The translations under genes were made by a program, and so were the position numbers. A stretch of 64,000 bases of DNA, taken from positions 1 through 64,000 of the forward strand of contig CAJNDD010000005.1 of the NCBI GenBank assembly GCA_905221435.1, in the 5' to 3' direction. This DNA is from a bacterium (GTDB lineage Bacteria > Bacillota > Bacilli > Lactobacillales > Streptococcaceae). The notes under the pieces are model-generated. The model made no database searches. It had not been told where the DNA came from and was given only the letters and a program-made list of their open reading frames with translations. The stretch's first letter is position 1. The number at the start of each line of letters is the position of its first letter. Shown piece by piece: positions 20,453 through 23,497 of the stretch.

Positions 20453-23113
20453 TTATAGCCAACTTTTAAATTTTTTGATATAGATTCGTTTCACAACTGT
20501 AACACTAATCATATAGAGAACGATTATCAAAAGCAAAAAGAGGAAATAAATTGGTTCCAAAGGTGTTAAATGAAGCAGGCTCGCAATTGAAGAGTAGGGA
20601 AGGAAGGTCACAAAACTAGCTGCCAACAAGGTTGTTCCAAGAACAAACCATGATGGACGACTTTGCAAGAAAGGCAATTTTGCTGAACGAAGCATATGGA
20701 TGACCATAGTTTGGGACCACATGGATTCAATGAACCAGCCTGTCTGGAACAGAATGATAAAGCCCGTTGCAGACTCTGCTCCGTGAACATAGGCTTGGCC
20801 TGTCGCCATTGGGACAATGACAAAATAGAGCAAGATAAAGGTCAAAATATCAAAGGCAGAAGAAATCGGACCCATCCAAATCATAAAACGAGTAATAGAC
20901 TTAGCCTCCCACTTATGAGGATGTTTCAAAAAGTCTTCATCCACATTATCAAATGGTAAGGCAATGCAAGAAAGGTCGTAGACGAGGTTTAACACAATCA
21001 AGTGAATCGGAGCCATAGGAAGGAAGGGTAAAAAGATACCAGACACTAACAGAGAGAAAATGTTCCCAAAATTAGAGCTGACCGTCATCTTGATGTATTT
21101 GGTCATATTAGCATAGACTTTGCGCCCTTCAACCAGCCCTTTCTCAAGCACCATCAAATCCTTATCCAGTAAAATAACATCAGCCGTTTCTTTGGCAATA
21201 TCTACTGCTGTATCAACAGAAATTCCCACATCGGCCACTTTCATAGAAGGGGCATCATTGATCCCATCTCCCATATAGCCGACACAATGTCCATTCGATT
21301 TGATTTGTAAAATGATTCGTGCTTTTTGATCCGGAGAAAGTTTGGCAAAGACCGTCACCTTCTCAACTGCTTGGGCCAACTCTTCGTCCGTCATGGCTTC
21401 AATATCAGAACCCAACAAGATTTGATCAACATCTAGACCAACTTTTTCGCAAACCGCTTGGGTTACCTTCTCATTGTCCCCCGTCAAGATCTTTGTTTGA
21501 ACACCGTGTTCTAACAAAGCTTGGATAGCAGGTGCTGCTGATGGTTTTGGTGGATCTAGAAAGGCAAGATATCCTGTTAGAATCATCTCCTTTTCATCTT
21601 CAACGGAGTATGCAAAACCTTCTTTTAGACCTGTTTTGTAGGCAACTCCCAAGACTCGCAATCCCTGTTGATTGAGTTGGTCTACTTCTTTTAAGATTTC
21701 CACTCGAATATCATCCGTCAGAGGGCTAATCTGACCTTGATATTCCACATGGGTTGAAATCGCAAGCATTTCCTCTAGGGCACCCTTGGTTACCAAACTA
21801 ACAACTTCGTTCTCATCCTTGACGATGACACTCATCCGTCTGCGTTCAAAATCAAAGGGTAATTCATCTATTTTTTGGAAGCTAGTATCCAAATTTTGTA
21901 AAATAGCGTGTTCTTTAGCTTCTTTTTCAGTTCTACTGATAATGGCACGGTCCATCAAGTTTTTCAAACCGGTTTGAAAATAGGAATTGAGGTAGGCACG
22001 TCTCAACACAGATAAATCCAAATCTCCATGTATATCCAAAGGATATTCAAGGACAATTTCGTCTTGGGTAAGGGTTCCGGTTTTATCCGTACACAGGATA
22101 TCAATAGCACCTAGGTCTTGTATGGCATTGAGTTTTTTGATGACGACTTTTTCCTTGGCCATGATAATGGAGCCTTTTGCTAGACTGGCTGTGATGATCA
22201 TAGGAAGCATCTCAGGTGTCAATCCAACACCAACACTCAGTGCAAACACACCTGCTTCCAGCCAGTCGCCATCTGTCAAGCCATTGGAGAGAAACACGAT
22301 GGGAACCATGACTAACATCAAACGGATCAAGAGCCAAGAGATGCTGTTCATCTCCCGTTCAAAAGAGGTCGGTTCGTCATAGGTATTGAGAGTCTGCTCG
22401 ATTTCTCCCATCATGGTGTCATCACCGACCGCTAGAATCAAAGCCTTGGCGCTTCCTGATATCACATTGGTTCCCATAAAAGCGAGCGCTTCTGCTTCTA
22501 GCAGACTATCAAAATTTGACTGACTCATTTTTGACAAGGCTAGTTTTTCAACCGAGTCACTTTCACCTGTCAAACCAGACTGTTGAACAAAGAAATCACG
22601 TGATTCAATTAAAATGAGGTCTGCTGGAATCATATCCCCAGCACTTAATTTGACTATATCTCCAACGACCAAATCTTCAATTGCGACCTCTAAACTCTGG
22701 CCTTCGCGGATAACTGTGGCTGTATTCACAATCATTTTTGATAGATTGGTCGCGGCCTTGTCACTCCGCAATTCTTGGACAAAGCGTATGCCACCAGAGA
22801 TTAGAACTAGAACGACGATGATGATAGAGGTCGTCGGATCTTCTTGCCCAGGCTTCGCCAACCAGACATTGGTCACCATGGAAATCATAGCGATGACTAG
22901 GAGGATGATTGTAAATGGATTGATAATAGATTCGTAAATCTTTTTGAGGATACTGTCTTCTTGACCCTTGGTGATGGTGTTTTCGCCATATAGGTCACGA
23001 TTTTTCTCCACCTGCTCCTCAGTCAAGCCTGTTAGACTTGTCTTATAAAAAGATAGAGTTTCGTTTAAGGGTGTGTGAATAGCTGTTGCTAATCTTTCTT
23101 TTGTAGTTTTCAT
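20453..23113 (-). CDS. mgtA: Magnesium-importing P-type ATPase
   Basis: The 886-aa P-type ATPase of the MgtA/MgtB class has TGES in the actuator domain (SGLTGESDSVEK), the phosphorylated Asp in CTDKTGTLTQDE near residue 340, KGALEEM in the nucleotide-binding domain and GDGINDAPSMK at the hinge. About ten membrane segments are visible. The class imports Mg2+ at low external concentration. The M-box riboswitch in its leader supports Mg2+ as the substrate and shows Mg2+-repressed expression. The start has AGGAG seven bases upstream. It is monocistronic. Confidence 0.93.
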   Translation of the reverse strand: MKTTKERLATAIHTPLNETLSFYKTSLTGLTEEQVEKNRDLYGENTITKGQEDSILKKIYESIINPFTIILLVIAMISMVTNVWLAKPGQEDPTTSIIIVVLVLISGGIRFVQELRSDKAATNLSKMIVNTATVIREGQSLEVAIEDLVVGDIVKLSAGDMIPADLILIESRDFFVQQSGLTGESDSVEKLALSKMSQSNFDSLLEAEALAFMGTNVISGSAKALILAVGDDTMMGEIEQTLNTYDEPTSFEREMNSISWLLIRLMLVMVPIVFLSNGLTDGDWLEAGVFALSVGVGLTPEMLPMIITASLAKGSIIMAKEKVVIKKLNAIQDLGAIDILCTDKTGTLTQDEIVLEYPLDIHGDLDLSVLRRAYLNSYFQTGLKNLMDRAIISRTEKEAKEHAILQNLDTSFQKIDELPFDFERRRMSVIVKDENEVVSLVTKGALEEMLAISTHVEYQGQISPLTDDIRVEILKEVDQLNQQGLRVLGVAYKTGLKEGFAYSVEDEKEMILTGYLAFLDPPKPSAAPAIQALLEHGVQTKILTGDNEKVTQAVCEKVGLDVDQILLGSDIEAMTDEELAQAVEKVTVFAKLSPDQKARIILQIKSNGHCVGYMGDGINDAPSMKVADVGISVDTAVDIAKETADVILLDKDLMVLEKGLVEGRKVYANMTKYIKMTVSSNFGNIFSLLVSGIFLPFLPMAPIHLIVLNLVYDLSCIALPFDNVDEDFLKHPHKWEAKSITRFMIWMGPISSAFDILTFILLYFVIVPMATGQAYVHGAESATGFIILFQTGWFIESMWSQTMVIHMLRSAKLPFLQSRPSWFVLGTTLLAASFVTFLPYSSIASLLHLTPLEPIYFLFLLLIIVLYMISVTVVKRIYIKKFKSWL

Positions 23114-23127
23114 TGGTTTCTCCTATC

Positions 23128-23209
23128 TGTATGAATGATGTGTTTCATACACAGAGACCAATCACTTTATAAGGGCAGAACGACACAAATCAGCGATTGG
23201 CTGTGTATG
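23128..23209 (-). promoter_or_regulatory. Two mutually exclusive hairpins in the mgtA leader
   Basis: Hairpin 1: an 18-bp arm inside the leader ORF (23192-23209) pairs with 23146-23154 plus 23158-23166, with a 3-base bulge and one G-U. Hairpin 2: 23128-23135 pairs perfectly with 23144-23151 (TGTATGAA with TTCATACA, 8 bp), five bases before the mgtA Shine-Dalgarno sequence. Both use 23146-23151, so they cannot form together. This layout resembles an attenuator in which ribosome position on the leader ORF selects the structure. Confidence 0.65.
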
Positions 23210-23238
23210 TGCGGTTCTGGGTGGTCGTCAATTTGCAT
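23167..23238 (-). CDS. 23-codon leader peptide ORF upstream of mgtA (MgtL-like candidate)
   Basis: ATG 23238 follows AAAGGAG with seven-base spacing, one of the best ribosome-binding sites in the window. The frame reads MQIDDHPEPHIH and ends ICVVLPL before TAA at 23167. It lies after the riboswitch terminator and before mgtA, and its second half forms one arm of a long hairpin. The acidic/proline N-terminus (DDHPEP) recalls Salmonella MgtL (MEPDPTP), where such residues destabilise ribosomes at low Mg2+. Translation is inferred from the ribosome-binding site and position only. A conserved hairpin without translation is the alternative. Confidence 0.6.
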   Translation of the reverse strand: MQIDDHPEPHIHSQSLICVVLPL

Positions 23239-23269
23239 CGTCTGTCTCCTTTCCCTGTTCTAAAACAGT

Positions 23270-23298
23270 AGAAAATCCTGCCATAAAATGGCAGGATT
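23270..23298 (-). terminator. Riboswitch-associated terminator in the mgtA leader
   Basis: Perfect 11-bp stem AATCCTGCCAT/ATGGCAGGATT (23274-23284 with 23288-23298), 3-base loop, followed on the minus strand by TTC and T-rich sequence. It is placed as the expression platform just after the M-box. Confidence 0.8.
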
Positions 23299-23324
23299 AA
23301 AAAACTAATTATCTGTTTTTTCGT

Positions 23325-23462
23325 TCAAGCTTTAACTCCATAGGGCAATGAAATGAGCTTAGTCTTGGCCTTCGCGACCAGGACTGTTGACCAACGAGTA
23401 GTGTCTCCACTGCTTTGCGGTAGTCATCCGTATCCCTATGGTAGCCTCACCTACCGTTTTCG
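23325..23462 (-). ncRNA. M-box (ykoK) magnesium riboswitch
   Basis: On the minus strand the leader shows the conserved M-box blocks GGTAGGTGAGGCTACC (23440-23455) and GGTCAACAG (23384-23392), and an 8-bp long-range stem CCATAGGG/CCCTATGG (23434-23441 with 23338-23345). M-box RNAs bind Mg2+ and switch off downstream Mg2+ transporter genes when Mg2+ is plentiful, which fits the mgtA gene below. Confidence 0.88.
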
Positions 23463-23468
23463 TCTATC

Positions 23469-23497
23469 AGTATAAACCTTTAAAATATAAAAGTCAA
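23469..23497 (-). promoter_or_regulatory. Promoter of the mgtA leader
   Basis: TTGACT (23492-23497), 17 bases, TATACT (23469-23474). Predicted start near 23462, so the M-box begins almost at the 5' end. Confidence 0.8.

Follow-up and report, generated by a model that had tools for sequence, protein, structure and literature searches.

A conserved acidic leader ORF between an M-box riboswitch and mgtA in Streptococcus, and its probable role in a ribosome-read attenuator

The window analysed in this study is a stretch of 64,000 nucleotides of contig CAJNDD010000005.1 (assembly GCA_905221435.1; Streptococcaceae). It contains an mgtA gene (20453–23113) encoding an 886-aa Mg2+ P-type ATPase (NCBIfam TIGR01524, 1081 bits against a cut-off of 611), whose product is 97–100% identical to those of the nine best-listed relatives (six S. 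oralis, two Streptococcus sp. and one S. pseudopneumoniae). This gene and all the leader features described below are carried by the minus strand, where the order from 23497 to 23113 is: promoter-like site, M-box, terminator hairpin, Shine-Dalgarno (SD) sequence, 23-codon ORF and mgtA. The gene located upstream is PepQ/aminopeptidase-like, the best models scoring below their own cut-offs.

The sigma-70-type promoter-like site TTGACT-17-TATACT (23469–23497) is a consensus match only; three such sites were found in the 900 bases scanned, against 2.2 expected from shuffles, and the match is therefore weak by itself. It is followed by an M-box, a representative of an established family of Mg2+-responsive riboswitches, which was identified as a full-length match to the aptamer model RF00380 (23309–23460; 88.1 bits against a cut-off of 44). 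An intrinsic-terminator-like hairpin (23274–23298; arms 23298–23288 and 23284–23274) lies 3' of the M-box. The 55-base stretch containing it (23256–23310) gave a folding z-score of -5.4, and the hairpin was absent from the output of a simple terminator scan. Next come the SD sequence AAAGGAG (23246–23252), which is conserved in relatives, and the leader ORF MQIDDHPEPHIHSQSLICVVLPL (23167–23238; 23 codons plus TAA), recognized from the ORF list and by its conservation. An earlier sequence-only reading of this DNA had proposed the promoter, the M-box, the terminator and the SD-led ORF, and each of them was recovered.

The leader ORF proved to be highly conserved in Streptococcus. Of the best 80 of 121 confirmed relatives (78 Streptococcus strains, Granulicatella elegans and Abiotrophia defectiva), 79 carry an ORF that is preceded by an SD and has three or more Asp, Glu or Pro residues among its first 12. 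The single exception (L037) is a run of N, and the same genome carries the motif 459 nt upstream of mgtA. The degenerate pattern I-D-D-(H/Y)-(P/T)-E-P matched one site each in 66 of 144 Streptococcus genomes. In all 66 cases the site was found on the mgtA strand, 79–459 nt upstream of mgtA; no site elsewhere than at mgtA was detected in the 144 genomes, and a control with the reversed pattern yielded no matches in the same set. An mgtA orthologue (counted at 66% identity or more, or as a fragment) was identified in 70 of these genomes, and the four without the motif carry variant DD ORFs (MPNDDHPSQQ in two genomes, MSSDDHPISQQ and MLSDDYSEK). No acidic leader ORF was found at L154 (Streptococcus genome G016), where the MgtA homologue is only 44% identical.

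The codon pattern was analysed in 38 distinct leader ORFs of the oralis/sanguinis/parasanguinis type, which represent 162 loci out of a total of 174; nine of the other 12 have variant ORFs, two (L013 and L037) are runs of N, and the last is L154. More than one codon is used at every position from codon 3 to codon 9, and apart from H6Y and P7T the residues there are constant. The set had been selected partly on the DD pair; E8 and P9 played no part in its selection. At codons 13–19, the nucleotide sequence itself is nearly frozen. Synonymous change at the former and invariance at the latter is the pattern expected of a coding head and a structural tail. An alignment over relatives had been named beforehand as a possible refutation of the sequence-only reading; instead, the frame, the start and the acidic/Pro codons are conserved and the third positions vary. 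Judged from this alignment, protein-level selection has acted on the leader ORF from Ile3 to Pro9. Within this segment, codons 4–9 (Asp-Asp-His-Pro-Glu-Pro; 23212–23229), which show mainly synonymous changes and coincide with a peak of the ribosome scan described below, form the proposed ribosome-destabilising motif. In S. mitis ColumbLawn (L054) MQIDDHPEP is kept, and most of the sequence from there to mgtA, including a repeat element, differs. The main text of the S. pneumoniae D39 ribosome-profiling papers makes no mention of mgtA.

The analysis was extended to 60 leaders of MgtA homologues from the same order (L174–L233; 47–72% MgtA identity), in which ORFs of 12–50 codons were considered. 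In 40 of them an SD-led ORF has two or more acidic residues within codons 2–6, against 1.5 expected from resampled leaders (sd 1.2, maximum 5, 200 runs); the antisense strand of the 60 stretches contained two SD-led ORFs of that length, neither of them acidic. Beyond this feature, most of the peptides bear no relation to one another (MDDSSQ..., MEDSEQ..., MEEEQEQ..., MGDDPQ..., MSGDDPKS...). A table of 58 loci was compiled, in which the leader ORF was chosen by hand, in some cases with no more than one acidic residue at codons 2–6. Forty of the 60 same-order loci were entered. The remaining 20 comprised, by our reading, seven near-duplicates (L177, L178, L179, L187, L194, L204, L216) and 13 others in which the ORF was missing, the SD was weak, or the acidic residues numbered only one or lay further in; among these 13 are L185 and L219, whose candidate ORF precedes a second M-box or overlaps mgtA. 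In the 39 non-redundant ORFs of the table, some of which were chosen with the help of the acidic criterion, acidic residues occupy 79 of the 195 positions at codons 2–6 and 84 of the 750 at codon 10 and beyond.

Outside the order, seven of 20 phylum-level leaders passed the acidic-ORF test, which here allowed ORFs of up to 60 codons (null 0.5, maximum 3); examples are MEPESSNGSNP, MDDGGNS, MLEDGSS and MVDDGSSS. In the set comprising the class and the second MgtA lineage, 3 of 20 passed (null 0.5, maximum 3), one of which (L246) is probably the mgtA frame itself, so that this set alone displays no excess. Three leaders of the second lineage (L249, L253 and, by eye, L182) have an acidic/Ser stretch further in, at about codons 7–13 (NSDPGSQ, NPDPSSQ and NSDHSSQ, respectively).

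At five loci, a small membrane-protein-like ORF of approximately 27–42 codons (e.g. MSELTIFLLFLGVGCFLWGIFYGKKVKKNDRKK) was observed between the leader ORF and mgtA (oriented-locus positions: L190 852–981, L193 888–990, L196 840–969, L206 830–935, L213 867–954). Two of these ORFs gave no Pfam match over the cut-off. MgtS and MgtR are small proteins that modulate MgtA, and the ORFs observed here could be candidates for a similar, MgtA-modulating role.

The M-box, which the window shares with other loci, and the leader ORF are separate elements. An M-box was present at all 20 relatives' loci tested and in 48 of the 60 same-order stretches fetched. At eight of the 20 tested loci (S. sanguinis/cristatus type) approximately 790 nt separate its end from the leader ORF, which stays at mgtA; at one locus (L079, 1229–1843) a 204-aa ORF with, by eye, a glutathione S-transferase-like start lies between the two. 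No M-box was detected in the fetched stretch for four of the seven phylum-level acidic-ORF cases (L263, L267, L268, L272). The distant or undetected M-box at such loci suggests that the leader ORF accompanies mgtA, not the riboswitch. At some other order-level loci the end of an acetyltransferase-like gene (by eye) lies between the M-box and the leader ORF. L185 carries tandem M-boxes (272–444 and 607–785) before mgtA, and its sole acidic-start candidate ORF (534–621) begins between them.

Folding and alignment pointed to six segments within the region from the leader start to the mgtA start: (i) S1, the leader start-codon region (23231–23241), (ii) S2, codons 7–11 (23208–23219), (iii) S3, codons 10–16, a lookalike of the region of the mgtA ribosome-binding site (RBS) (23193–23209), (iv) S4, codons 16–22 (23176–23191), recognized from the alignment, (v) S5, a putative anti-RBS right after the ORF stop (23146–23165), and (vi) S6, the mgtA SD AGGAG (23124–23120) with the start-codon region (23112–23135). 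Four pairings were predicted among them. In element A (-23.0 kcal/mol) S3 pairs with S5, and in element B (-15.6 kcal/mol) S5 pairs with S6 and hides it. S4 is the partner of S2 in element C and, through codons 17–22, of S1 in element D. The sequence-only reading had described two hairpins with the common bases 23146–23151; the overlap does exist and the segment is longer (about 23162–23146). Its downstream hairpin was thought to stop five bases before the mgtA RBS, which did not hold, as the best predicted form spans the SD and reaches into the start-codon region. Pairings A, C and D, which are alternatives to one another or to B, persist in the relatives, and this comparison, too, did not refute the sequence-only reading.

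In a 32-sequence alignment, 98.4% of cells were paired in A, 93.3% in C and 98.9% in D, compared with about 14–54% for controls in which the partner was slid. Changes on both sides of a pair were few (2 cells in A, both read as L102, 9 in C and 5 in D). These counts exceeded those of most of 500 shuffles, which ignore relatedness; however, C slid by -1 and D slid by +2 gave more such cells than the true versions (13 versus 9 and 7 versus 5, respectively), and thus the both-sides counts alone are weak. The alignment shows that S3 is able to pair with S5, and that this ability has been conserved, as far as base complementarity can tell. No covariation was found for stem B in the same alignment. 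In a column-wise test, eight rows lacked the apical stem and, by our own reading, the register of the SD side moves one base between groups; since the apical stem hardly varies, covariation speaks neither for nor against B.

Element D was also scored without an alignment. The score was 0.56 for the 58 loci and 0.19 for shuffles, with a set maximum of 0.25; 29 of the 58 reached p < 0.05 singly, and the window alone gave p 0.16. For 16 loci that are not part of the main set, the corresponding values were 0.36 and 0.16 (set maximum 0.29). In leaders of the MDDSS type the acidic codons sit in the start-side arm of D, so that RNA pairing could explain part of their conservation. A repeat with flanking TATGA copies adds about 106 nt to the leader at six loci (L055, L056, L063, L064, L065, L073; upstream of position 2001); it occupies the loop between S5 and the mgtA RBS, and both stem arms are kept. 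This repeat resembles the streptococcal RUP element.

The accessibility of the mgtA SD was then considered as a function of ribosome position, in a model in which only the RNA downstream of the ribosome may fold. This model was chosen after a variant allowing upstream-downstream pairing around the masked ribosome had been run and dropped, a useful signal being absent from it. In the window, the SD was unpaired with a probability of 0.68 when codon 6 was in the A site (Asp5 in the P site), of 0.31–0.46 for a ribosome at codons 1–5 and 7–23, and of 0.67 at the stop codon. When the leading-edge offset was varied from 10 to 17, the first peak remained on D4, D5 or H6 in the P site. Over the 53 scored of the 58 loci (L151, L175, L215, L218 and L223 were skipped), SD opening with an early ribosome (codons 5–7) minus that with a late one averaged +0.19, the null from 100 whole-set shuffles being -0.025 (sd 0.023, maximum 0.044); the effect size alone, recomputed for offsets 11–16, was 0.18–0.20. 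Singly, 21 of the 53 loci reached p < 0.05 (the window alone gave p 0.03), and 16 missed p 0.2 (L059, L110, L147, L180, L183, L191, L192, L200, L202, L203, L205, L209, L224, L226, L227, L233). Opening was greater early than late in 40 loci and smaller in two; compared with naked RNA, early opening was greater in 36 and smaller in nine. The loci are related by descent, and the set-level shuffles therefore overstate independence.

The scan was also applied to 16 additional loci, of which six belong to other orders of the class, nine to other classes and one to the second MgtA lineage in the order (L253 and L271 were left out). Their mean was +0.066, against a null maximum of 0.067. Because this result is borderline, the structural part is claimed for Lactobacillales only.

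Taken together, these data make it probable, in our view, that mgtA is controlled by two successive gates, the M-box followed by a translational attenuator that is read by the ribosome, with the Mg2+ step of the latter proposed by analogy. The first gate would be the M-box with its terminator, acting on transcription. The second would be read by a ribosome on the 23-codon ORF. In the predicted default fold, both the SD and the start codon of mgtA would be covered by S5. A ribosome that stops at the Asp codons is predicted to block the ORF-internal pairings C and D and to leave S3 free, which would then capture S5 and open the mgtA SD; with the ribosome further along the ORF, or with none, S5 would remain on the RBS. 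At low cytoplasmic Mg2+, pausing or drop-off at the acidic/proline codons, as reported for MgtL, might thus allow mgtA to be translated, and at ample Mg2+ the ORF would be read through, S5 would hide the RBS and mgtA would be off. Behind a ribosome that has read through, element D may hide the leader start. The overall logic would be that of a trp-type attenuator acting on translation. We infer that the ORF is translated, that it responds to Mg2+ and that regulation has this sign; Mg2+ sensing by the leader ORF is, in particular, proposed after the enterobacterial example. On the whole, the interpretation of the sequence-only reading is supported.

The output of the second gate is probably translational and Rho-dependent termination is unlikely, since no Rho (TIGR00767) over the cut-off was found in 40 Streptococcus genomes, which gave weak matches only, while eight of 14 control genomes were over it. 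The weak matches (frames of about 470 and 500 residues) resemble F-type ATPase subunits.

The same attenuator might respond to another signal, such as charged His/Pro tRNA, EF-P, the polyamine state or a general slowing of ribosomes. The oralis-type ORF does contain three His and three Pro codons, and any pause at codons 4–7 would free the SD in the scan. We nevertheless consider this unlikely, given that across lineages His and Pro are not conserved (MDDSSQ, MEDSE, MEEEQE and others) and the acidic residues are kept, and that the gene served is a Mg2+ pump located behind an M-box. Plain translational coupling, in which full translation of the ORF switches mgtA on because the terminating ribosome covers S5 and thereby exposes the mgtA RBS, is allowed by the opening of the SD at the stop codon, which climbs at the last codons not only in the window but also at other loci (e.g. 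L076, L102, L109). This explanation appears distinctly improbable: the distance from the ORF stop to the next start is 9–141 nt (non-overlapping ORFs of the 58-locus table), which is atypical of coupling, and the conserved acidic codons and the ORF-internal S3 would be left unexplained. The strong amino acid conservation of codons 3–9 could also reflect a peptide working in trans as a small protein, the RNA folds being secondary, but the remainder of the peptide varies by group and the motif never occurs away from mgtA in the 144 genomes, which makes such a role very doubtful. It is scarcely credible that RNA structure alone matters and that the ORF exists as a side effect of the demands of base pairing, for although codons 13–19 are nearly frozen and D is conserved, codons 4–6, which lie outside the counted A, C and D pairs, vary almost only synonymously, and the leader SD and start codon are kept.

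Returning to the two-gate reading, a broader proposal would be that in Lactobacillales, and perhaps more widely in Firmicutes, two independent Mg2+ sensors act in series on one mgtA mRNA, the M-box aptamer on transcription and the ribosome, through the acidic leader ORF, on translation, and that the ribosome gate either arose separately from enterobacterial mgtL/mgtQ or is ancient and older than the present peptides; the chances for and against this proposal seem to us evenly balanced. If it is true, Mg2+ sensing through ribosome stability would be a recurrent solution and no enterobacterial speciality, and a ribosome sensor stacked under a classical riboswitch would provide separate checks on transcription and translation. 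The natural sets of acidic leader peptides lend themselves to tests of which early sequences destabilise Gram-positive ribosomes, and the question of why two sensors for one ion should serve one transporter becomes testable.

A search of the titles and abstracts of the open-licence literature, most subscription papers being outside its scope, revealed no earlier description of an acidic leader ORF at mgtA in Firmicutes. The kind of mechanism proposed here is, by analogy, already known from mgtQ and MgtL, and it is the Gram-positive form below an M-box for which no earlier description was found in that literature.

Among known systems, the Mycobacterium tuberculosis pe20 leader also has a conserved small upstream ORF (uORF2/Rv1805A) after an M-box; there, in contrast, the M-box controls the uORF and a translational platform plus Rho is involved, the parts of the report available to us not describing any reading of Mg2+ by uORF2 (PMC12810186). 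Enterobacterial MgtL has an early EPDP motif, drop-off at which at low Mg2+ is described as preventing Rho-dependent termination (PMC11282234), and in mgtL/corL the SD of the uORF is hidden in a stem, comparable to element D (PMC11552253). The sequence-only reading had called the streptococcal leader MgtL-like. This is apt as regards the short ORF with an early acidic/Pro motif before mgtA, which is evident from the sequence and its conservation and whose translation is suggested by the codon pattern, and as regards the alternative folds and the sequestered uORF SD (PMC11282234, PMC11552253). It is less so as regards the output, which is Rho-dependent termination in mgtL, whereas the search for TIGR00767 in the 40 Streptococcus genomes argues against it here; moreover, the arrangement, with an RBS that is hidden or freed, is closer to that of mgtQ.

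According to the available parts of its description, mgtQ of the Salmonella mgtCBRU operon is an 8-codon ORF that precedes mgtB and has acidic residues at two positions, Asp2 and Glu5; stem 2:3 is in competition with stems 1:2 and 3:4, the RBS is covered by stem 3:4, and the acidic codons promote mgtB translation (PMC8092293). Both leaders thus combine a short ORF with early Asp/Glu codons before a Mg2+ transporter gene, competing stems and RBS hiding (PMC8092293), and in the streptococcal one the predicted folds and scans place the transporter RBS in a stem whose formation competes with that of a stem from the ORF, A being conserved and B lacking covariation. They differ in that mgtQ has eight codons and is located between mgtC and mgtB in a PhoP-driven operon (PMC8092293), whereas the ORFs described here usually have about 23–35 codons, and the streptococcal side is marked by the added start-hiding pairing D, an upstream M-box and its occurrence in Gram-positive lineages. 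By the arrangement described for each, the nearest relative in mechanism of the streptococcal leader is Salmonella mgtQ, more so than MgtL.
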